Positions 8,325-47,777 of a DNA stretch of 64,000 nucleotides are shown piece by piece; position 1 is the first letter of the stretch; each line of letters begins with the position of its first letter. The translations under genes and the position numbers were made by a program. This stretch comes from Comamonas koreensis (GTDB taxonomy: Bacteria > Pseudomonadota > Gammaproteobacteria > Burkholderiales > Burkholderiaceae_C): NCBI RefSeq assembly GCF_014076495.1, contig NZ_CP043575.1, positions 5,141,001 to 5,205,000 on the forward strand, given 5' to 3'. Below the pieces are notes generated by a model, which was not told where the DNA came from, did not search any database, and was given only the letters and a program-made list of their open reading frames with translations.

Positions 8325-9902
8325 TCAGCCCTGGGGGCCGCTGCTACTGCGCAGGCCAAAACCCGCCTGCGGCGCCTCCTTGAAACGGTCCTTGAGCACG
8401 CGGCGCAGCAGCTTGCCGGTCTCCAGCCGGGGCAGGCTGGCCTCAAACACCAGGCGCTGCGGCCGCTTGACCTTGGACAGGCTGCCAGCGGCCTGCTCGA
8501 CGATCGCGCGGGCCATGGCCTCGTCGGGCGAAAAGCCGGGCTTGAGTACCACGACGGCCAGGGTCTGCTCGCCAAAGTCCTCATCGGGCACGCCAACCAC
8601 GGCCACCTCTTCCACGGCGGCATGCTGGGCCAGCGCGTTCTCAATCTCTTGCGGATAGAGGTTGACCCCGCCCGACAAAATCAGGTCAGCGCGCCGGTCG
8701 CTCAAAAACAGAAAGCCTTCGGCATCGACATGGCCGATGTCGCCATAGGTGGCCCAGCCGCGCGCGTCGATGGCCTCGCGCGTCTTGCGCTCGTCATTGA
8801 GGTACTGGAAAGCGCCGCCGCCCGAGAAATACACGCGGCCCACTTCGCCGACCCCCAGCTCCTGGCCGTCGTCGCCAACGATATGCAGCTGGCCGCTGAT
8901 GGCCCGGCCCACCGAGCCCGGCCGTGCACGCCATTGGGCCGAGTCGATCAAGGTGGTGCCGCAGCCTTCGGAGCCGGCGTAGTACTCCAGCAAGATGTCG
9001 CCCCACCAGTCCAGCATGCCTTGCTTGACGGCCACCGGGCAGGGCGCTGCCGCATGGATCGCCACGCGGTGGCTGTCCAGCCGGTAGCGGCGCTTGACCT
9101 CATCAGGGAGCTTGAGCAGGCGCCCCAGCATCGTCGGCACCCACTGGCTGTGCGTGACCTGGTAGCGCTCGATCAGCGCCAGCGCCTGCTCGGGGTCGAA
9201 GCGGCTCATGATGATGGCCGAGCCGCCGACATCCAGGGTGCGCAGGCTGTAGCGCAAGGGCGCTGCATGGTAGAGCGGCGCGGGCGAGAGGTAGACGGCG
9301 TCTTCATCAAACCGCATGCTGCGCATCCAGGCGGCGACCTCGGGATCGCGCTGCTGCCGATAGGCCGCTGCCAGCAGCGGCTTTTTGATGCCCTTGGGCC
9401 GGCCGGTGGTGCCGCTGGAATAGAGCAGATCGCGGCCCAGCGGGCGCGTGGCCAGGTCGATCTGCGCGCCCTGGGGCACGGCGGCCAGCGCATCGGCCAG
9501 GGGCGCCACGCCGGGCGTATCGCCATCGACCGAATAGCAGGCCAGCGCCAGGCCCTGCACGGCCTCTTGCGCGGTCGGCCAGGTCTTGCTGGAGACCAGC
9601 AGCATCCGGGCGCCGCTGTCCTGGGCGATATAGGCCACCTCGGCGGCCGTCAGGTGCGTGCTGATGACGGCCGCATACAGGCCGGCCAGCCGCGCGGCCA
9701 GCACCAGCTGCACGATCTCATAGCGGTTCTCCAGCAGCACCGCGATGGTCTCTTCGGCCTGCAGCCCCTGCTGCGCCAGCCACTGCGCCATCTGCTGGGC
9801 CCCCTGCGCTATCTCGCCTGCGGTGTAGCGCCTGCCGCTGTCGGCCTGCGTCAAAACCACCCGCTCGGGCTGGGCCTGGGCCCAGCTGAAGAAGTTGTGC
9901 AT
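8325..9902 (-). CDS. AMP-forming acyl-CoA ligase
   Basis: 525 residues from ATG 9902, which is preceded by GGAG nine bases upstream; an upstream in-frame ATG lacks such a site. ATP-binding P-loop LLYSSGTTGRPKGIKK, central YYAGSEG and hinge-region DRRADLILSGGVN are typical of the ANL superfamily. The enzyme activates a carboxylic acid to its CoA thioester. It heads the minus-strand operon ligase, acyl-CoA dehydrogenase, Bug receptor, and faces a divergent thiolase operon across a palindrome-rich gap. Substrate is not predictable by eye. Confidence 0.9.
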   Translation of the reverse strand: MHNFFSWAQAQPERVVLTQADSGRRYTAGEIAQGAQQMAQWLAQQGLQAEETIAVLLENRYEIVQLVLAARLAGLYAAVISTHLTAAEVAYIAQDSGARMLLVSSKTWPTAQEAVQGLALACYSVDGDTPGVAPLADALAAVPQGAQIDLATRPLGRDLLYSSGTTGRPKGIKKPLLAAAYRQQRDPEVAAWMRSMRFDEDAVYLSPAPLYHAAPLRYSLRTLDVGGSAIIMSRFDPEQALALIERYQVTHSQWVPTMLGRLLKLPDEVKRRYRLDSHRVAIHAAAPCPVAVKQGMLDWWGDILLEYYAGSEGCGTTLIDSAQWRARPGSVGRAISGQLHIVGDDGQELGVGEVGRVYFSGGGAFQYLNDERKTREAIDARGWATYGDIGHVDAEGFLFLSDRRADLILSGGVNLYPQEIENALAQHAAVEEVAVVGVPDEDFGEQTLAVVVLKPGFSPDEAMARAIVEQAAGSLSKVKRPQRLVFEASLPRLETGKLLRRVLKDRFKEAPQAGFGLRSSSGPQG

Positions 9903-37062: not shown

Positions 37063-37749
37063 ATGCTCCCCGCCACGCTCGCCCTGGTCGACGACGACCC
37101 CGAATACAGCGAATTTCTGGCCCAACACTTGCGCAACCAGGGCGTGCAGGTACAGGTTTACAACGACAGCAGCGACCTGCTGGCCGATATCGAGCCCTAC
37201 CGTTTTGACTTCTATGTGCTGGACCTGATGCTGCCCGGCGTCAACGGCACCGAGCTGCTGCGCATTCTGCGCAAGCGCAACCAGGCGGGCGTGCTGATCG
37301 TCTCGGGACGGCTGGGCCCCGAGGTGTTTGCCGAGGTCATCAATGCCGGCGCCGACATGTACCTGACCAAGCCGGTGACCTTCGAGCAGGTGGAGCTGGC
37401 CGTGCGCGCCGTGCACCGCCGCATCATGACCACCGCCCAGGTCGCCACGGCCTGGAAGCTCGACAGCCACCGCAGCCTGCTGCTGACGCCCGATGGCCAG
37501 AGCGTGGAACTGAGCCCCACCGACCTGATGCTGATGCAGTGTTTTCTAAAAGCCCAGGGCGCCGTCGTGGGCCGCGACCAGATCCGTGAACTGCTGGGCT
37601 ACCCGACCGCCAGCGACTCCGACAACAGCCTGCACGCCACCATCTACCGCCTGCGCCGCCGCATCGAGAAGGCCACGCCGCTGGCGGTGCCGCTGCAATC
37701 GCAGCAAAAAGTGGGCTACCAGTTCCGCGCGCCGCTGGTCTCGGCCTAA
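37063..37749 (+). CDS. OmpR/PhoB-family response regulator
   Basis: 228 residues. Receiver with acidic pair VDDD, phospho-acceptor Asp54 in VLDLMLPG and Lys103 in LTKPV. A winged helix at about 135-225 (LSPTDLMLMQCFLKAQG, SLHATIYRLRRRIE) binds DNA. Likely paired with the kinase just upstream. A terminator follows at 37778 and faces the Roadblock-like gene on the other strand. Confidence 0.9.
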   Translation: MLPATLALVDDDPEYSEFLAQHLRNQGVQVQVYNDSSDLLADIEPYRFDFYVLDLMLPGVNGTELLRILRKRNQAGVLIVSGRLGPEVFAEVINAGADMYLTKPVTFEQVELAVRAVHRRIMTTAQVATAWKLDSHRSLLLTPDGQSVELSPTDLMLMQCFLKAQGAVVGRDQIRELLGYPTASDSDNSLHATIYRLRRRIEKATPLAVPLQSQQKVGYQFRAPLVSA

Positions 37750-37820: not shown

Positions 37821-38180
37821 TTACATGGTCATGTTCGATTCGACATCGGCCACCTTGCGGCGGGCCAGCGCCAGGTTGGAGCGGGCCTTGTCCAGCACGT
37901 AGTAGACGAAGATGCCGGCCAGCTTCTGCGATGGGCGGATAAGGTGGTACTGCTTGCCCAAGGTGATGAGGATGTCGTCGATGTTGTCGTTCAGGCCCAG
38001 GGCCTTCATCGTCTTCATCTTGGCGCGCACCACTTCGGTGTTGCCAGCTGCTGCCAGCTCCATGTCCACACCGCTGCCGATGCTGCCCAGCATCATGCCG
38101 CTGCTGTAGTCCACCACGGCAGCGCACAGCGCGCCGTCCATCGTCATCAAGTCGCTCAAGCTGTCGTTCAGATTTGCCAT
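37821..38180 (-). CDS. Roadblock/LC7-like small protein A
   Basis: 119 residues from ATG 38180, with GGAG about eight bases upstream. The pattern of a short helix, LMTMDGALCAAVVDYSSGMML and a later ITLGKQYHLIRP strand fits the Roadblock/LC7 fold, which often acts with GTPases or gliding/polarity systems. It is about 80 percent identical by eye to the next gene, differing mainly in scattered conservative changes. No partner GTPase is visible nearby. Confidence 0.75.
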   Translation of the reverse strand: MANLNDSLSDLMTMDGALCAAVVDYSSGMMLGSIGSGVDMELAAAGNTEVVRAKMKTMKALGLNDNIDDILITLGKQYHLIRPSQKLAGIFVYYVLDKARSNLALARRKVADVESNMTM

Positions 38181-38546: not shown

Positions 38547-38906
38547 TTACATGGTCATCGCGCTTTCGACGTCGGTCACCTTGCGGCGTGCCAGTGCCAG
38601 GTTGGCGCGCTTGTTGTCGAGCACGTAGTACACAAAGATGCCGGCCAGACGCGAGCAAGGACGGATGATGTGGTACTGCTTGCCCAGCGTGATGAGGATA
38701 TCGTCGATGTTCTCGTTCAGGCCCAGGGCCTTGATGGTCTTCATCTTGGCGCGCACCACTTCGGTGTTACCGGCAGCTGCCAGTTCCATGTCCACGCCAG
38801 TGCCGGCGCTGGCCAGCATCATGCCGCTGTTGTAGTCGACAACGGCTGCGCACAAAGCGCCGTCCAGAGACATCAGATCATTCAAGCTGTCGGTCAAATT
38901 CGCCAT
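38547..38906 (-). CDS. Roadblock/LC7-like small protein B
   Basis: 119 residues from ATG 38906 with AGGAG seven bases upstream. Same fold pattern as protein A: SLDGALCAAVVDYNSGMML, a shared stretch MELAAAGNTEVVRAKMKT, ITLGKQYHIIRP and the shared tail ALARRKVTDVES. It has one extra Cys (RPCSRLAG). A tandem duplication is the simplest origin. A separate leader of about 400 bases suggests independent expression. Confidence 0.75.
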   Translation of the reverse strand: MANLTDSLNDLMSLDGALCAAVVDYNSGMMLASAGTGVDMELAAAGNTEVVRAKMKTIKALGLNENIDDILITLGKQYHIIRPCSRLAGIFVYYVLDNKRANLALARRKVTDVESAMTM

Positions 38907-39304: not shown

Positions 39305-41497
39305 ATGACTGAACGCACCACCGTCCACGGCCTGCAAGTGGCCCAGGTTCTGTATGACTTTGTGAACACCCAGGTGCTGCCAGGCACCGGCGTGGAGCCC
39401 GCTGCGTTCTGGCAAGGTTTTGATGCCATCGTCTCTGACCTGGCGCCCAAGAACGCGGCCCTGCTGGCCGAGCGCGACCGCCTGCAAGCCGAGCTGGACA
39501 GCTGGCACAAGGCCCATCCCGGCCCGATCACCGACATGCCGGCCTACCGCCAGTTCCTGACCCAGATCGGCTACCTGGTCGAGCAGCCGCAAGACGTGAA
39601 GGCCAGCACCGAGAACGTGGACTCCGAGCTGGCCGTGCAAGCCGGCCCGCAGCTGGTGGTGCCCATTCTCAATGCGCGCTATGCGCTCAACGCGGCCAAC
39701 GCCCGCTGGGGCTCGCTGTATGACGCGCTCTACGGGACCGATGTCATTGGCGAAGACGGCGGCGCAGAAAAGGGCAAGGGCTACAACCCGGTGCGCGGCG
39801 CCAAGGTCGTCGCCTATGCCCGCCAGTTCCTGGACCAGGCCGCGCCGCTGGCAAAAGGCTCGCACGCCGATGCCAGCGGCTACGCCGTCGAAGGCGGCCA
39901 ACTGGCCGTCACGCTCAAGGACGGCAGCAAGACCGGCCTGCACGAAGCTGCCAAGTTCGTCGGCTTCCAAGGCGATGCCGCCGCACCCCAATCGGTGCTG
40001 CTGAAGAACCATGGCATCCATATCGACATCATCATCAACAAGGCCACCCCCATTGGCAGCAGCGATGCCGCCGGCGTCTCTGACGTGGTGGTGGAAGCGG
40101 CGCTGTCGACGATTCTCGATCTGGAAGACTCGGTGGCGGCGGTGGACGCTGAAGACAAGGTCAACGGCTACGCCAACTGGCTGGGCATTCTCAAGGGCAC
40201 CTTGACCGAGTCCTTCGACAAGGGCGGCAAGACGGTGACCCGGGGCCTGAACGCCGACCGCGAGTACACGGGCGCCAATGGCGACAGCCTCAAGCTCCAT
40301 GGCCGCTCGCTGATGTTCCTGCGCAATGTCGGCCACCTGATGACCAACCCGGCCATCCTCTGGGGTGCCGACCAGAAAGAGATCCCCGAAGGCATCATGG
40401 ATGCGGTGGTGACCACGGCGATTGCCATGCACGACCTGCAGGGCAAGGGCGCCCAGGGCATCCGCAACAGCCGCACCGGCAGTGTCTACATCGTCAAGCC
40501 CAAGATGCATGGCCCGGCCGAAGCGGCCTTTGCCAACGAGCTGTTTGGCCGCGTCGAGCAGATGCTGGGGCTGCCTGCCAACACCGTCAAGCTCGGCATC
40601 ATGGACGAAGAGCGCCGCACCACGGTGAACCTGAAAGCCGCGATTGCCGCAGCGCCTGCACGCGTGGCCTTCATCAACACCGGCTTCCTGGACCGCACCG
40701 GCGACGAAATGCACACCGCCATGTACGCCGGCCCCATGGTGCGCAAGGCGGACATGAAGACCTGCGCCTGGCTGCCCGCTTATGAAAAGAGCAATGTGCT
40801 GGTGGGCCTGACCATGGGCCTGCGCGGCCGCGCCCAGATCGGCAAGGGCATGTGGGCCATGCCCGACCTGATGAAGGCCATGCTGGAGCAAAAGATTGCC
40901 CAGCCCAAGGCCGGCGCCAACACCGCTTGGGTGCCCTCGCCCACCGGCGCCACCCTGCATGCGCTGCACTACCACCAGGTCAATGTGGCCGAGGTGCAAA
41001 AGGAGCTGGAAAAGACCAGCGCCGATGCCGAGCGCGACAACCTGCTCAATGCCATCCTGCAAGTACCCGTGGCCGCCAACCCGAACTGGAGCGATGCCGA
41101 CAAGCAGCAGGAAGTGGACAACAATGTGCAGGGCATCCTGGGCTATGTGGTGCGCTGGATCGACCAGGGCGTGGGCTGCTCCAAGGTGCCCGACATCCAC
41201 AACGTGGGCCTGATGGAAGACCGCGCCACCCTGCGCATCTCCAGCCAGCACATCGCCAACTGGCTGCAGCACGGCATCGTGACCGAAGCGATGGTGCGCG
41301 ACAGCTTCGCCCGCATGGCCAAGGTGGTCGATGGCCAGAACGCAGGCGACGCGGCTTACAAGAGCCTGGTGGCCAACCCGCAGGGTGCCGCCTTCCAGGC
41401 CGCACTGGACCTGGTGTTCAAGGGCAAGGAGCAGCCCTCGGGTTACACCGAGCCATTGCTGCACGCCTGGCGCCTGAAGGTCAAGGCCGGCGCATGA
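39305..41497 (+). CDS. glcB: Malate synthase G
   Basis: 730 residues, the G-isoform length. Condenses glyoxylate with acetyl-CoA to malate. Signatures: [34 protein letters not shown] and [15 protein letters not shown] (metal and glyoxylate binding). AAAGG lies upstream of ATG 39305. Two terminators follow. The gene stands alone, without glcDEF. Confidence 0.96.
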
Positions 41498-41555
41498 ACG
41501 CAGGCCTCCGCCTTGCGCGGCACAGCGCATGGTTTGCCCTAGGGTAAACACCAGG

Positions 41556-41580
41556 AGCAGCCCAATGGGCTGCTTTTTTT
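41556..41580 (+). terminator. glcB terminator 1
   Basis: Stem arms 41556-41564 (AGCAGCCCA) and 41566-41574, then a run of T to 41580. Confidence 0.88.
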
Positions 41581-41607
41581 TATAGCACCCCCGCTAATCC
41601 GGTTCAA

Positions 41608-41635
41608 AGCCTGCCCCATTTGGGCAGGCTTTTTT
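41608..41635 (+). terminator. glcB terminator 2
   Basis: 9-bp stem AGCCTGCCC/GGGCAGGCT with a 5-base loop, then a T-run. A second strong terminator insulates the AT-rich leader and operon downstream. Confidence 0.85.
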
Positions 41636-41930: not shown

Positions 41931-42344
41931 ATGGGCCATCAATCCATTACATGCGCCAAGCAGGCATGCATCCAGGTACTGGCACAACAGCGGCATCTGC
42001 TGCTGTGGGCAGGCCTGGGGCTGAGCGCCTCGGTATTCGCCCAAAACAACCAGCAGGTGGTGGTCAATGGCGGCATCGTCAATATCTCCGGCCCGGCGGC
42101 CCAGGCGGTGATGAATATCTCATCGAACAAGAACATCCGCCAGATTCGCGGCAACAACCAGGTGACCTCGGTCAATGGCGTGGTCGCGAACATGGCCAGT
42201 TTCGGTGCCTATAGCGAATTGAATATTGCGTCGCGCAATGGCGGAGTCGGCAGCGGCAGCCAGGTGGTGTCCGTAGGCGGACCGGTGGTCAACCAGGCCA
42301 CCGGCACCGGCATGCGCAGCGTAGTGAACATTGGTGGACGGTAG
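41931..42344 (+). CDS. Small secreted repeat protein A (candidate fibre subunit)
   Basis: 137 residues from ATG 41931, with AAGGAG upstream. The hydrophobic segment LLLWAGLGLSASVFAQ acts as signal, preceded by a longer basic N-region. The mature part has three imperfect ~30-residue repeats centred on VVVNGGIVN, SVNGVVANMA and VSVGGPVVNQA, each followed by NISS, NIAS or NIGG. Asn, Gly, Val, Ser rich, one Cys-free mature part. Alternating hydrophobic residues suggest beta-strands. Exported fibre subunit is an inference. Confidence 0.7.
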   Translation: MGHQSITCAKQACIQVLAQQRHLLLWAGLGLSASVFAQNNQQVVVNGGIVNISGPAAQAVMNISSNKNIRQIRGNNQVTSVNGVVANMASFGAYSELNIASRNGGVGSGSQVVSVGGPVVNQATGTGMRSVVNIGGR

Positions 42345-42462
42345 CAGGGCGCCCTGCGGCCGCACGCCAATGAACGGTTCGGTTTCTCCGACATGGGGAG
42401 CTGACTGCAGAGGTGCATACACAGGAAGTGCACCATATTCTTTCAGTAACGAGGAGATTTAT

Positions 42463-42762
42463 ATGAAGAAGTTTTTCGCAATTCTGGTGTCGGTTTCGGC
42501 TATCGCCATGTCTGCCCAGGCAGAAGTGAAAATCAAGGGCAACAACGACCAGAAGGTCACTGTAAAGAACGGCGCTGTCGCCAATATGGCCATCGGCGCA
42601 GGTGCTACCGCTACGCAAAACCTGGCCTCCAACAAGGGCAACGTCAATATTGGCGGCAATAACAAGCAGGAAGTCTCGGTCACCAATGGTGCCGTGGCCA
42701 ATATGGCGATCGGCGCGATGACCAAGGCCGAGCAAAACCTCGCCTCCAACGACGGCAAGTAA
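42463..42762 (+). CDS. Small secreted repeat protein B (candidate fibre subunit)
   Basis: 99 residues from ATG 42463 with GAGGAG six bases upstream. Clear signal peptide ending SAQA. Two near-identical repeats of about 39 residues: core VKNGAVANMAIGAG and VTNGAVANMAIGAM, each followed by QNLASN and preceded by GNN. No Cys. This is the clearest repeat form in the cluster and shares VxNGAVAN with proteins A and D. Likely a beta-rich extracellular subunit. Confidence 0.75.
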   Translation: MKKFFAILVSVSAIAMSAQAEVKIKGNNDQKVTVKNGAVANMAIGAGATATQNLASNKGNVNIGGNNKQEVSVTNGAVANMAIGAMTKAEQNLASNDGK

Positions 42763-42861
42763 TCCCCATCCCTTCATCCCGCTGGCCGCCGAATGCGTCT
42801 GGAGACCATTTGCTGGCCGGCCCCTATAAAAAAGATCTTCTGCAGAGCATTCGTCAGCGCC

Positions 42862-42883
42862 AAGGGATGCGGCCGCATCCCTT
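42862..42883. repeat. 22-bp perfect palindrome in the gene C leader
   Basis: AAGGGATGCG followed by its reverse complement with a two-base-overlap centre GCGGCCGC; 43 bases upstream of gene C. No T-tract, so it is not an obvious terminator. It could be an operator or an RNA stem separating genes B and C. Confidence 0.6.
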
Positions 42884-42926
42884 CGCCTGCGATCGTTGTG
42901 CAGAGGGTCCCTCAAGGAGACTGCGC

Positions 42927-43262
42927 ATGAAAGCCAGCTATGCCGGGGTATGGGTTCTCGCCCTGTTGTGCGCCGCCGCACAGGCCCAGCAAAAGCCACC
43001 CGCAGGCCGCACCGGGCTCGATCCAGCCTCACGCAACAAGGTGAGCAATGCCATGGCCCGCAACTACCTGACGGAGCAGGACTCCAGATCCGCCATCGAG
43101 CGTGAAATGGTCACCGGCCCCTCGGGCAAGAACTGCAATACCAATGTGGGTGCCGCCCCCCAGATCAACGAAGGCACGGCCGGTATCGGTAACCGCTATG
43201 GGGCAGGCAATGCCGACCAGGTCACCGTGGTACGTGGCTCAGTCATCAATATCTGCAAATAA
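42927..43262 (+). CDS. Small secreted protein C with C-terminal operon motif
   Basis: 111 residues from ATG 42927 with AAGGAG seven bases upstream. Signal peptide ends AQAQ. Middle part is charged and helical. The tail ADQVTVVRGSVINICK repeats the QVxVxxGxVxN pattern of proteins A, B and D, and two cysteines (CNTN and ICK) could form a disulfide. Possibly a minor or nucleating subunit; this is an inference. Confidence 0.7.
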   Translation: MKASYAGVWVLALLCAAAQAQQKPPAGRTGLDPASRNKVSNAMARNYLTEQDSRSAIEREMVTGPSGKNCNTNVGAAPQINEGTAGIGNRYGAGNADQVTVVRGSVINICK

Positions 43263-43379
43263 ACACGATGGCTTCTGCGCCAGAGCCAGAAAACTCTGTG
43301 CAGCCACCCCGGGACGAGGGAGCCCGGCAGCACGCTGAGCCCAGCGGCAGCCCCACCATCGCCATAACGAATAACCACC

Positions 43380-45056
43380 ATGCATCTTTCATCGATTCGC
43401 CGCCTGGCGCTTGCGCCCTGCGTGCTGGCCTTGTCTGCCTGCAGCATCCAGCCCACCTTGTCCGACCGCAAGGACATCATTGAAAAGGGCATCACCGAGC
43501 AGTCACCGCTGGTCACGCCCACCAAATCCGCATCGGCGATGCGCGAAGGCCTGGCCTGCATGGACCGCATGCTGGCGGCCGAGCAGGTGCCCTCGACGCT
43601 GGTCGCGGTCAAGAGCATCCCCGATCCCTCGGGGCTGTTTTCCACCGGCACCAAGGAGATGGTAATCACGGCGCTCTCGCGCATGTCACGCACCAGCCAG
43701 GCCTTCCGCGTGGTCGACTATGAAGTCGATGCGCTCAAGCAGGACACCGTGCAGACGATGACCAGCCTGCTGCTCAACAACGGCCAGATCGAGCTGCGCA
43801 AGCCACAGATCTATGTCTCGGGCGCCATCAGCTTTGGCGACAAGACGGTGGTCTCCAAGCGCAGCAGCCTGGGCGTCTCCACCGCCAATACCGACACCGG
43901 CTACAGCTGGGACTTGCTGGGTACGGTGGTGGGGCTCGATCTGCATCTGGGCGACATGAACTCCCGCACGCTCTACCCCGGCCTGGATTCAGCCAACGAG
44001 CTGGTCGTCGCCACCGGCGGCCGCTCGGTCGAGATCGGCGGGCGCGCCACCGGCCTGCCCAAGCACATCTACCGCCTGGGCGTGCAGTACGAAGTGGCTG
44101 CCGACGTGAACCAGGGCGCGGGCGCGGCCGTGCGCCTGCTGGTCGACCTGGCCACCATCGAGCTGGTGGGCAAATGGGCCAAGGTGCCGTACTGGGAATG
44201 CATCGACTACGAGCAAAACCACCCCGAATTCAAACGCCAGATGCGCACCTGGTTTGACGAGCAAGGCGCGGCCGACCGCATCACCTTGGCCCAGCGCGTG
44301 CTGCAGGCCCAAGGCGCCTGGAGCGGCCCCATCGATGGGAACGACTCCACCGCGCTGCGCAATGCGCTCGCGCTCTACCAGGCATCGCTGGACCTGACCC
44401 CGGTTGGCGTCGTCAACTTTGAGACCTATATGGGGCTGCTGCGCCTGTATGCCGGCATGTCGGCCGATGACAAGATCGCCTCCAGCTACTCGCCGCAAAG
44501 CAACGAACTGAAGCCGCGCCCGCACGGCCTGCCGGACAACGAGCCGACCACCGACGCGTTGGCGCTGTCCCTGCTCGGCCACAAGGAGCTGGCCTCGCAG
44601 CTGCCCATCGGCACCTCGGTGGTGCTGCGTGTGGCGCCGGCCCGCACCGGCTTTCTCTACTGCTACTACCAGGATGCCGCCCAGGTGGTCACCCAGGTCT
44701 ATCCCAACCCGCAGCAGCAGGCGGTGGTGGCCCAGGGTCGCATCGGCCTGATGGTGCCCGATGTGTCGCAGGCCAATTCCTTCCTGATCGAGACCGCCCG
44801 CCCTGGCGTGGAGCAGGTGTACTGCGCCCAGACCACCAAGCCGCTGACCGGCCGCGTGCCGGTGGCCCTCACCCAGGCCCAGCTGGCACCGATTGAGGGC
44901 CTGACCAGCATCGAGGCCGTGCAGCAGCAGATTGCCGCGCAGACCGGCGTCATCGCCCAGTCGCAGCTGCGCTGGGAAGTGGAGGGCCCTGTGGCCACCC
45001 CCCTTGCCCAGCCTGCCCCTGCCGCCGCCCCCGCACGCCGCGGCAAAACGCGATGA
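43380..45056 (+). CDS. CsgG-like outer-membrane lipoprotein with peptidoglycan-binding and DUF4384-like regions
   Basis: 558 residues. Signal with lipobox LALSAC. N-terminal ~270 residues resemble CsgG/HfaB secretion channels (MVITALSRMSRTSQAFRVVDYEVDAL is the closest-looking stretch). Then a PG-binding-1-like repeat (ITLAQRVLQAQGAWSGPIDG) at about 300-360, and a DUF4384-like end (PIGTSVVLRVAPARTGFLYCYYQ). C-terminal Pro/Ala tail. Family calls are by eye and moderate. It follows protein C by 117 bases and overlaps the Sel1 gene as ATGA. Proposed role: export or anchoring of proteins A-D. Confidence 0.6.
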   Translation: MHLSSIRRLALAPCVLALSACSIQPTLSDRKDIIEKGITEQSPLVTPTKSASAMREGLACMDRMLAAEQVPSTLVAVKSIPDPSGLFSTGTKEMVITALSRMSRTSQAFRVVDYEVDALKQDTVQTMTSLLLNNGQIELRKPQIYVSGAISFGDKTVVSKRSSLGVSTANTDTGYSWDLLGTVVGLDLHLGDMNSRTLYPGLDSANELVVATGGRSVEIGGRATGLPKHIYRLGVQYEVAADVNQGAGAAVRLLVDLATIELVGKWAKVPYWECIDYEQNHPEFKRQMRTWFDEQGAADRITLAQRVLQAQGAWSGPIDGNDSTALRNALALYQASLDLTPVGVVNFETYMGLLRLYAGMSADDKIASSYSPQSNELKPRPHGLPDNEPTTDALALSLLGHKELASQLPIGTSVVLRVAPARTGFLYCYYQDAAQVVTQVYPNPQQQAVVAQGRIGLMVPDVSQANSFLIETARPGVEQVYCAQTTKPLTGRVPVALTQAQLAPIEGLTSIEAVQQQIAAQTGVIAQSQLRWEVEGPVATPLAQPAPAAAPARRGKTR

Positions 45057-46288
45057 GGCGCCTCGCACCTACCCGCCGCCGGGCGGGCCTTTTGGCGCTG
45101 ACCGGCGGGCTGCTGCTGCAAGCCTGCGCCAGCTGGGCCGCCATCGTGCTGCCATCGGCAGGCGGCGGCGATGCCGGCGCGGCCGCCAGCAGCCCGGCCC
45201 CTGCAGCGCCCGCCGCGCCGGGCTCATCGATCCGCATGCCAGCCCAGCGCAGCGATGCCAGCCTGCAGGCGCTGCGCCGACAGGCACAGGAAGGCGAAGT
45301 CAGCGCCCAGTTCGAGCTGGGCATGTACTACTACCAGAACGCCGGCCTGCCGCAAGCGGGCGCCCAGGCCCGCCAGTGGCTGGGCCAGGCCGCCGCACAA
45401 GGCGATGCCCGGGCCATGGCGGCGCTGGGCTACATGCTGGGCACGGGCACCGGCGGTGTGCGGGATGTGCCCACCGGCCGCCAGTGGTTGCAGCGCGCAG
45501 CCGATGCGCGCCTGGCCAAGGCCACCTACCTGCTGTCCCTGGTCGAGCGCAAAGTGACTGGCCCCAAGGCCATGCAGCAGTCGCGCTTGCTGCTGGAGCA
45601 GGCCGCGCGCGATGGCGATGCGATGGCGCTCAATGACCTGGCCGTCGAGCGCGAGCTCGAAGGACGCATGAACGAGGCCAAGGAGCTGTACGCCCAGGCC
45701 CAGGCCGGCGGCAGCCAGACGGCGGCCCAAAACCTCGGCCGCATCGCCAGCTACCAGCGCGCCAGCACCGCCGAGCAGCTGGGCCGCCTGCGCGCGCGTG
45801 CCGACGAGGGCAATGCCAATGCGCTGCTGGAGCTGGCCTACCGCTACCATCTGGGGCGCGGCGTGCAGCGCAATTTCGCCACCGCCATCCAGTACTACCG
45901 GCGCGCGGCCGATGCCGGCTCGCCCAAGGCGCGCGAGTTTCTGGCGCTGATCTTCAGCCGCAGCAACGACAAGCAACCGGTCATTGACGAAGCCTGGATG
46001 CAGGAGCTGGCCGCGCGCATCAATGCCGTGGCCTTGCAGGTCGAAGAAAAACACCCCAGCGCGCCGCCCGATCGCCCCCAACGCGTGGCCGACCCGCTCT
46101 CGCAGCTGAGCCAGCAGCCCTTTGCCTGGCCAGAGCCGCCCGCCGCCGATGGCGATGCGGCGGCAGATACCAACACCCCACCGCTCTCGCAGGAGCAGGT
46201 GGTGCCGACCGAGGGGCTCCCCTCTGCCGCGCATGCCCCAGGCATGCAGCCCTCCAACCTGAGTCACAACGCGCCGCTCACCGAGTAG
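45053..46288 (+). CDS. Sel1-repeat lipoprotein
   Basis: 411 residues. Lipobox-like LLLQAC near residue 25. Sel1/TPR-like repeats at about 75-300 (AQFELGMYYYQNAGLPQAG, QWLGQAAAQGDARAMAALGYM, LAYRYHLGRGVQRNFATAI). The C-terminal 90 residues are Pro/Ala/Asp rich. ATGA overlap with the CsgG-like gene indicates coupled synthesis, comparable to accessory proteins in CsgE/F- or HfaD-like roles, though unrelated in sequence. Confidence 0.75.
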   Translation: MRRLAPTRRRAGLLALTGGLLLQACASWAAIVLPSAGGGDAGAAASSPAPAAPAAPGSSIRMPAQRSDASLQALRRQAQEGEVSAQFELGMYYYQNAGLPQAGAQARQWLGQAAAQGDARAMAALGYMLGTGTGGVRDVPTGRQWLQRAADARLAKATYLLSLVERKVTGPKAMQQSRLLLEQAARDGDAMALNDLAVERELEGRMNEAKELYAQAQAGGSQTAAQNLGRIASYQRASTAEQLGRLRARADEGNANALLELAYRYHLGRGVQRNFATAIQYYRRAADAGSPKAREFLALIFSRSNDKQPVIDEAWMQELAARINAVALQVEEKHPSAPPDRPQRVADPLSQLSQQPFAWPEPPAADGDAAADTNTPPLSQEQVVPTEGLPSAAHAPGMQPSNLSHNAPLTE

Positions 46289-46305
46289 CGCAAGAAAGGA
46301 CAAGC

Positions 46306-46872
46306 ATGCAACAACCCAAAATCAAGCAGGCCCTGGCCGTGCTGACCCTGAGCCTGGCCGCTGGCGGCGTCTGGGCGCAAGGCGCCGTCATCTCGGCCCC
46401 CGGCGTCGATGTGCGCGGCGGCAGCCAAGGCGCCTCGGTCACCGTCAACGGTGCCGTCGTCAATGCGGCTTCGGGCCGTGGCGCCGTGGCCGAGACCAAT
46501 ATCCCCGGCCGCAGCAGCACCGTGCACGGTGGGGCCGGTGGCGCAGCCGTCGTCGTCGAAGGCCAGGGCAAAACGTCGGCCACCGTGCGCAGCCAAAAGC
46601 GCAGCGGCGGCGGCAACCAGGCCCATGTGAACGCCAATATGTCCGGCTCCAACCTGCCCCAGGCCAACTTTGCCGGCCACAGCTTCACGAATGTAGACCT
46701 GTCCAACTCCAACCTGCAGGGCGCCAACTTCCAGGGCGCCGAGCTGGTCAATGTGAGCCTGGACAACTCCAACCTGGCCGGCGCCAACCTGACGGGCGCC
46801 ACCTTGGTCAACGTGTCGATGGAAGGCGCATTGACCACCGGCGCGATCTGGACCAACGGCCAGCGCCGCTGA
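46306..46872 (+). CDS. Secreted pentapeptide-repeat protein D with operon motif
   Basis: 188 residues. Signal ends VWAQ. Residues about 40-70 carry GASVTVNGAVVNAASG and AETNI, matching the motif of proteins A and B. A Gly/Ser/Lys linker follows, then at about 135-180 a pentapeptide-repeat solenoid (ANMSGSNLPQANFAG, LSNSNLQGANFQGAEL). Starts 17 bases after the Sel1 gene with AAAGGA as ribosome site. A hybrid of repeat motif and pentapeptide domain is unusual. Perhaps a tip or anchor subunit. Confidence 0.75.
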   Translation: MQQPKIKQALAVLTLSLAAGGVWAQGAVISAPGVDVRGGSQGASVTVNGAVVNAASGRGAVAETNIPGRSSTVHGGAGGAAVVVEGQGKTSATVRSQKRSGGGNQAHVNANMSGSNLPQANFAGHSFTNVDLSNSNLQGANFQGAELVNVSLDNSNLAGANLTGATLVNVSMEGALTTGAIWTNGQRR

Positions 46873-46931: not shown

Positions 46932-47777
46932 ATGATGCAAATACCATCCATTCGCAATGGTGGCTGGCTGTCCGGCCTGCTGGGTCTGGCGCTGCTGGGC
47001 GGTTGCACAAGCCAACCGCCCCAAGCCGCAGCCTCCGCCAACGCCGAATTCAACCTGGCAGCCTTGGCGCGCTCCAAAGCGCCCGATGTGCTGCTGCTGG
47101 GCGAGCAGCATGATGCGCCCGAGCACCAGCAGTGGCAGCAGACCACGGTGGCCCAGTGGGCCGCGCGACAGCAATTGGCCGCCGTGGTGCTGGAGATGGC
47201 CGACGCCGGTCACAGCACCCAGGGCCTGGCCCCCAGCGCCAGCGAAGCCCAGGTGCAGCAGGCGCTGGCCTGGAATGACAAGAGCTGGCCTTGGCGCCAC
47301 TACGGCCCGGCGGTGATGACGGCGGTGCAGGCGGGGGTGCCCGTGCTGGGCGGCAACCTGCCGCGAGCGCAGATGCGCGATGTGATGCAGCAAACTCGCT
47401 GGGACAGCCACCTGCCCGCTGCTGCATGGCAGCGCCAGCTCGACGCCATTGCCGACGGCCACTGCGGCCTGCTGCCCGAGGGCCAGCTGGCCCCGATGGC
47501 GCGCATCCAGCTGGCCAAGGACGACAGCATGGCCCAGACCGCTAGCTCCCAGCTGCAGCCCGGCAAGACGGTGCTGCTGATCGCCGGGCGCGGCCATGTG
47601 CTGCGCAGCATCGGCATTCCGACCTGGCTGCCTGCGGGCACCCGCTCGGTGGTGGCCATTGGCCAGGCGGGCAGCCAGGCCCAGGCCGATGCGGCCGACC
47701 GCGACTGGGTACACAGCACCCCGGCGCTGCCGGCCCAGGACCACTGCGCCGCGCTGCGCGAGAAGTGGAAGAAGTAG
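46932..47777 (+). CDS. ChaN-family lipoprotein
   Basis: 281 residues; ATG 46932 and 46935 are both possible. Lipobox LLGGC. DVLLLGEQHDAPEHQQWQQ and the later RGHVLRSIGIP fit the ChaN/haem-binding-uptake and EreA-like fold. Members are linked to iron or haem handling. The gene is 59 bases after protein D and may be cotranscribed, but the family is widespread and its membership in the fibre cluster is doubtful. Confidence 0.8.
   Translation: MMQIPSIRNGGWLSGLLGLALLGGCTSQPPQAAASANAEFNLAALARSKAPDVLLLGEQHDAPEHQQWQQTTVAQWAARQQLAAVVLEMADAGHSTQGLAPSASEAQVQQALAWNDKSWPWRHYGPAVMTAVQAGVPVLGGNLPRAQMRDVMQQTRWDSHLPAAAWQRQLDAIADGHCGLLPEGQLAPMARIQLAKDDSMAQTASSQLQPGKTVLLIAGRGHVLRSIGIPTWLPAGTRSVVAIGQAGSQAQADAADRDWVHSTPALPAQDHCAALREKWKK

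Follow-up and report, generated by a model that had tools for sequence, protein, structure and literature searches.

Export through CsgG-type channels is known from described systems with which a new locus can be compared. In curli, the constriction loop of CsgG is marked by Tyr66, Asn70 and Phe71 (PMC7304575). According to the part of the source dealing with holdfast proteins, HfaB is CsgG-like, HfaA is amyloid-like and similar to CsgA, and both HfaA and HfaD depend on HfaB for their targeting (PMC6707917). FapC is described, in the relevant section of its report, as having imperfect repeats of approximately 35-40 residues that contribute one cross-beta layer each and carry conserved Asn/Gln (PMC12392863). 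The portion of the 2012 curli survey used here records two betaproteobacterial curli systems, both in Burkholderiales, and takes non-specific CsgG hits to suggest a larger family; in that portion, Comamonas and Acidovorax go unmentioned in the main text (PMC3521004). We analysed a 64,000-nucleotide window of the Comamonas koreensis genome (contig NZ_CP043575.1, positions 5,141,001 to 5,205,000; the genome is 5.22 Mb on a single contig), in which six genes, called here A, B, C, G, S and D, form a cluster. The cluster is likely to encode a system for export across the outer membrane that is based on a CsgG-type channel and has a repeat-protein cargo of its own, and it probably makes an outer-membrane pore together with repetitive, fibre-like exported proteins. 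CsgG-type export itself is known; what we regard as new are the cargo, the partners and the pore architecture. No paper on this system was found in the open-licence literature among the matches listed, in keeping with the original prediction, which had called it undescribed, and no open-licence paper joined CsgG with Comamonas, or CsgG, amyloid and secretion with Comamonadaceae.

The repeat protein B was strictly linked to the lipoprotein G. In the best 80 of 108 G relatives from a scan of named genomes, the B repeat gave 93 matches at E <= 0.01 among 11,782 six-frame open reading frames (ORFs), all on the strand of G; 78 were the gene upstream of G (78/80 loci), eight lay at the A position and seven were D-type genes. 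The two loci lacking B (L058 and L087) had only 152 and 1 bases of contig upstream, so that the predicted recurrence of the motif beside similar lipoproteins was found at every locus not cut by a contig end. A locus-independent comparison used the G and B profiles on 200 family-level genomes, the same draw for both as far as the matches listed go. The G profile at E <= 5e-202 matched 24 of them in 25 places, and the B profile at E <= 1e-5 matched the identical 24, within about 2 kb of the G place among the matches listed; the count of co-occurrence that had been proposed as a check thus gave the same genomes from either side. B had no match in the other 176 genomes, 13 of which held weaker G-like matches (4e-21 to 1.5e-92). 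G was matched in 20 of 61 genomes of a genus and order sample, and a class-wide search matched 44 of 369, mostly through the peptidoglycan (PG)-binding or DUF4384 part alone.

The motif itself was examined with a hidden Markov model (HMM) of 20 related repeats, from which the window's own two were left out. A and D were not in the training set; close relatives of B were, so the score of B is not independent. Among the 769 ORFs of the window, the top three were B (E 1.3e-30), D (4.3e-4) and A (3.3e-3), with two repeats in B, one clear repeat in D and three weak ones in A. Their scores exceeded the best reported among 500 shuffles each (102.8 vs 8.0 bits for B, 16.9 vs 8.1 for D and 14.4 vs 6.4 for A), and ranking and shuffles together indicate that the motif is real in these three proteins. 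The original prediction had placed it in four, with one repeat in C. However, C scored -0.6 bits against 7.0 for its best shuffle (500 shuffles); its ORF ranked fourth with E 0.97, on the QVTVVRGSVIN stretch named earlier, and the next ORFs followed from E 1.1. Since the C and B profiles also gave no match (probability 2.3%), C was not supported as a carrier of the motif, whereas the repeat numbers for A, B and D stood.

Between one and eight repeats were detected per locus. The L092 homologue, which shares 59% identity with B, was modelled by AlphaFold2 (AF2) as an all-beta solenoid, and stacked rungs were read from the strand period of the model; the beta structure anticipated for the repeats is thus predicted for a B-type homologue, the modelled protein being neither B nor A itself. 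FapC was the best Foldseek match of this model. Searching the B profile against PDB sequences found neither FapC nor CsgA, Pfam gave only stray matches on nine long B-type proteins, and A-D had no curlin match at E <= 1. The 35 homologues of B and the 65 of a B-type protein from Acidovorax were unnamed, 'hypothetical' or bore stray names (YjlB, for example); among these 100, a single precomputed Pfam family occurred, PF10106 on one of the 35.

G starts with an LSAC lipobox (by eye). As predicted, its N-terminal half is CsgG-like, by structure model and profile homology, and is followed by PG_binding_1 (1.8e-5) and DUF4384 (2.6e-8) regions. The model contained long strands at 144-167, 171-192, 197-225 and 231-243, and 173-214 residues were aligned to CsgG chains against 117-123 to PelC. 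The membrane-hairpin part therefore appears to be present, with low model confidence at 111-140 and 221-250, and G is predicted to carry a CsgG-like fold including the membrane hairpins. PelC, LptE and GNA1162 folds were also among the structural matches, and the absence of other folds from the VIA lists excludes nothing. A 12-residue gap replaced the constriction loop in both the global and the N-terminal profile alignments, while the local profile alignment to CsgG began after the loop. None of 40 G family members matched the Pfam CsgG family (PF03783) at E <= 10, hhalign of G against E. coli CsgG alone gave 3.5%, and single-sequence and profile searches of PDB sequences with G returned no useful match. 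The closest named relatives at the locus were Comamonas sp. JUb58, B21-038 and BIGb0152 (95-97% for G).

C has two Cys, which are found again in its relatives (by eye), and a C-terminal QVTVVRGSVINICK. A C-family HMM found it in 78/80 loci, always just upstream of G and in no other position, with the two misses at contig edges; C looks like an accessory protein rather than structural cargo. S contains Sel1 repeats (2.3e-19) behind a lipoprotein-like start, and its gene is joined to that of G by an ATGA overlap (45053-45056), confirming the pairing described before. A Sel1-type gene followed G in 78/80 loci; in the two misses, L078 and L110, the contigs end 1.8 and 1.5 kb past the start of the G match. 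Both counts hold partly by construction, because the C profile was built from 70 of the same loci and the Sel1 profile from loci with a phmmer match (76/80); the absence of C elsewhere is not so affected. A defence role was rejected, as PADLOC on A, B, G, S and D gave only PtuA on S (0.0054, 13.6 bits). The C-terminal half of D consists of pentapeptide repeats (1.4e-18), and a D-like protein with a pentapeptide-like tail (by eye) was present in 13/80 loci. In the D-type proteins of L051 (Variovorax; 8583-9407) and L061 (9009-10076), DUF2807 ('putative auto-transporter adhesin, head GIN domain'; 6.8e-7 and 2e-9) takes the place of the pentapeptide repeats and is joined to the single B-type repeat; in L051 the gene sits between G and S.

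Two classes of locus were distinguished. Fifteen loci (L041-L053, L061 and L092) have an A-like protein, and all 15 also have a D-type protein; this six-gene class ranges from Comamonas, Acidovorax and Ottowia to Lysobacter and Aggregatibacter kilianii. The remaining 65/80 loci have four genes, B-C-G-S. A divergent regulator, presumably a LuxR/NarL-type response regulator, was found on the opposite strand about 1.3-2.6 kb upstream of G in 52 of the 58 four-gene loci with more than 2.6 kb of upstream sequence; it had no match at E <= 1e-20 in the 15 six-gene loci. Both classes occur in one genome in Ottowia beijingensis (L050/L111) and Acidovorax sp. A1169 (L046/L057). In a tree of 81 G proteins made by a quick method, in which L061 lies outside the six-gene label and several deep rows are long and unsure in place, the window grouped with Comamonas, and L051, L061 and L092 were on long branches. 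Pasteurellaceae, too, contain the six-gene set or its B protein, as seen in A. kilianii (L092) and Actinobacillus succinogenes (P0147); this occurrence, far from Comamonadaceae, could reflect transfer.

All six ORFs were recovered where the original prediction had placed them, and a Sec-type signal peptide was recognised by eye at the start of each of A-D. Against the relatives L041, L043 and L044 (some L044 dS values exceed 1), dN/dS was 0 to 0.28 for all six genes, and this purifying selection supports their coding status; B, with 0.017, 0.019 and 0.049, was lowest or second lowest each time. NCBIfam gave no name over its cut-off to any of seven proteins scanned.

Features of the cluster and its immediate surroundings (positions in the window)
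Feature	Position	Strand	Description	Evidence
A	41931..42344	+	exported, 137 aa, three B-type repeats	ORF list; HMM E 3.3e-3, above its own shuffles
B	42463..42762	+	exported, 99 aa, two ~39-aa repeats; proposed main cargo or fibre subunit	
C	42927..43262	+	exported, 111 aa; proposed accessory factor (nucleator, plug or cap)	
G	43380..45056	+	558-aa outer-membrane lipoprotein	CsgG-like domain ~50-275, PG_binding_1 299-350, DUF4384 408-488
S	45053..46288	+	411 aa, Sel1 repeats, lipoprotein-like start; proposed periplasmic partner or gate	
D	46306..46872	+	exported, 188 aa, a single B-type repeat followed by pentapeptide repeats (~109-175); tip or cap proposed	
Intrinsic-terminator-like hairpin	41606..41632	+	11 pairs, T tail	consensus match only
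Second terminator-like hairpin	41553-41577			consensus match only
ChaN-like gene	46932-47777		downstream of D	PF04187, 2.9e-36

Both terminator-like hairpins lie upstream of A, between the cluster and the gene at 39305-41497; the scan reports consensus matches, 9 across the stretch against 4.1 expected. The promoter scan of the stretch found 1 against 1.0 expected. The gene at 39305-41497 is, we assume, malate-synthase-like. Such genes adjoin the six-gene cluster in L021-L023 and other genes flank it in L024, so the position of the cluster is not fixed. Further upstream, two similar 119-aa proteins, which we take to resemble Roadblock/LC7, are encoded in tandem on the minus strand (37821-38180 and 38547-38906), near a response-regulator-like gene at 37063-37749.

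Signal peptides, lipobox and CsgG-like domain together point to an outer-membrane pore with the PG-binding and DUF4384 domains on its periplasmic side. A, B, C and D would cross the inner membrane via Sec. The N-terminal half of G, with its predicted fold, may assemble into a CsgG-like ring and a beta-barrel in the outer membrane, and the PG-binding and DUF4384 domains would anchor this pore to the cell wall and build a periplasmic vestibule. B, joined by A in the six-gene class, would leave by way of the pore and then adopt, outside the cell, a beta-solenoid fold whose ~39-residue rungs are held by Gln/Asn ladders; the solenoid is predicted, and its open ends may stack into fibres. That B is the main cargo is the best-supported step, because of its strict linkage, variable repeat number and modelled solenoid fold; its export, like secretion and fibres in general, we infer. 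The genome held no match to CsgE or CsgF at E <= 1, and its best match to curlin (PF07012) scored 12.7 bits, under the 20.7 cut-off, and lay outside the locus; the E. coli controls were detected in both cases. S and C are therefore the linked proteins that may act as gate, chaperone or nucleator. Judged by conserved linkage, S may be a periplasmic partner that delivers or gates cargo, a position held in curli by CsgE. C, encoded beside the channel, may be an assembly factor, perhaps a nucleator or plug. D, which combines a single B-type rung with a beta-helical head (formed by pentapeptide repeats here and by DUF2807 'head GIN' in two relatives), might cap the fibre or carry an adhesive tip.

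G could instead be a periplasmic scaffold of the CsgG/LpoB/PelC fold on the outer membrane, forming no channel, with A, B and D as periplasmic or outer-surface solenoids that have a part in strengthening the envelope or organising polysaccharide. The PG-binding and DUF4384 domains suggest such a cell-wall role, PelC, LptE and GNA1162 are among the structural matches, and the pore-lining constriction loop is absent. However, the long strands and the longer alignment to CsgG than to PelC favour a hairpin part that appears to be present (with low confidence at 221-250), and the tight coupling with small exported repeat proteins suits cargo better; we regard a scaffold as unlikely. A divergent holdfast anchor resembling HfaABD, in which G exports a polysaccharide-holding anchor and the repeat proteins tether without forming free fibres, seems quite improbable. 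The likeness of HfaB to CsgG and HfaA to CsgA, and the need of HfaA and HfaD for HfaB in targeting, speak for it as far as the relevant part of the source goes (PMC6707917), as does the D-type arrangement of a B-type rung with a beta-helical head, which a tether might have. Against this, no polysaccharide genes were spotted by eye in the gene lists of 18 neighbouring loci, which were not systematically annotated.

That the cluster is canonical curli, merely diverged, is hardly credible and was rejected, given that none of 40 G family members matched PF03783 and the genome lacks matches to CsgE, CsgF and curlin over cut-off. The same kind of channel fold and a divergent regulator that recalls CsgD in most four-gene loci would agree with curli; the extra domains of G, the Sel1 partner and the repeat length do not. 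An export system with its own repeat-protein cargo remains our preferred reading.

Twenty loci with weaker or more distant G-like matches (L153-L172), read by eye, extend the comparison. Seven (L153, L154, L156, L158, L160, L170 and L172) have a different exported repeat protein upstream, its motifs being dissimilar (for example QTQSGSRN or INASKNTLTNTQAIG), with a small C-like protein between it and the G-like gene; L172 has three near-identical copies in a row. Five others (L155, L157, L159, L161 and L162) have a Cys-containing exported protein of ~200-270 aa in the cargo place before the G-like gene. Cargo was thus assigned in 12 of the 20 and in none of the other eight, which suggests a larger family with swapped cargo. 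The two PF03783 matches of the C. koreensis genome lie outside the present locus. One, a 469-aa CsgG protein at L194 (G000:C1:532800-547800; reverse strand, ~533.2-539.3 kb), is flanked by two exported proteins, one of 218 aa and rich in Asn/Gln, the other a repeat protein of 999 aa, and is accompanied by a divergent regulator that we presume to be LuxR-type; the second, of 358 aa, lies ~5 kb beyond that set.

As a tentative extension, which we hold to be possible, the cluster may represent a separate nucleation-and-secretion class, in which a wall-anchored CsgG-type pore without the constriction loop exports FapC-like 39-residue solenoids. A curli-type exporter would then be combined with a Fap-type subunit, and the tip would be one rung joined to a beta-helical head that can be exchanged. 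The pore would have been kept in deeper relatives and the cargo swapped, so that a single pore scaffold may have been used by several dissimilar fibre proteins, within Burkholderiales and outside it. Little is known about the matrix proteins of Comamonas, Acidovorax, Delftia, Polaromonas, Hydrogenophaga and Limnohabitans, all of which are common in water, soil and sludge. Related clusters are present in many environmental bacteria, and a conserved unnamed pore with its own repeat cargo offers a concrete gene target for biofilm fibres of those genera. It also provides a natural test of whether amyloid export needs the curli constriction loop, and the loci with one to eight detected repeats are a ready series for relating fibre stability to repeat number.

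Compared with known systems, the cluster shares with HfaABD of Caulobacter a CsgG-like protein with exported partners at the outer membrane, HfaA and HfaD being considered by description only, from the part of the source that covers them. It differs from PelC-type lipoproteins in that the G model aligns with them over only 117-123 residues. With Fap of Pseudomonas, compared through the FapC structure only, the likeness lies in repeat length (~39 residues here, ~35-40 in FapC), in conserved Asn/Gln and in FapC being the best structural match of the B-like model. With curli it shares the CsgG-type channel domain by fold and profile, an exported repeat protein with conserved Gln/Asn, the lipobox on the channel protein and, often in the four-gene class, a divergent, presumably LuxR-type regulator. 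Unlike the curli channel, however, G has PG-binding and DUF4384 domains and is without the Y66/N70/F71 constriction loop; the Sel1 protein and C stand instead of CsgE and CsgF, and the repeat is ~39 residues here compared with ~20 in curli.
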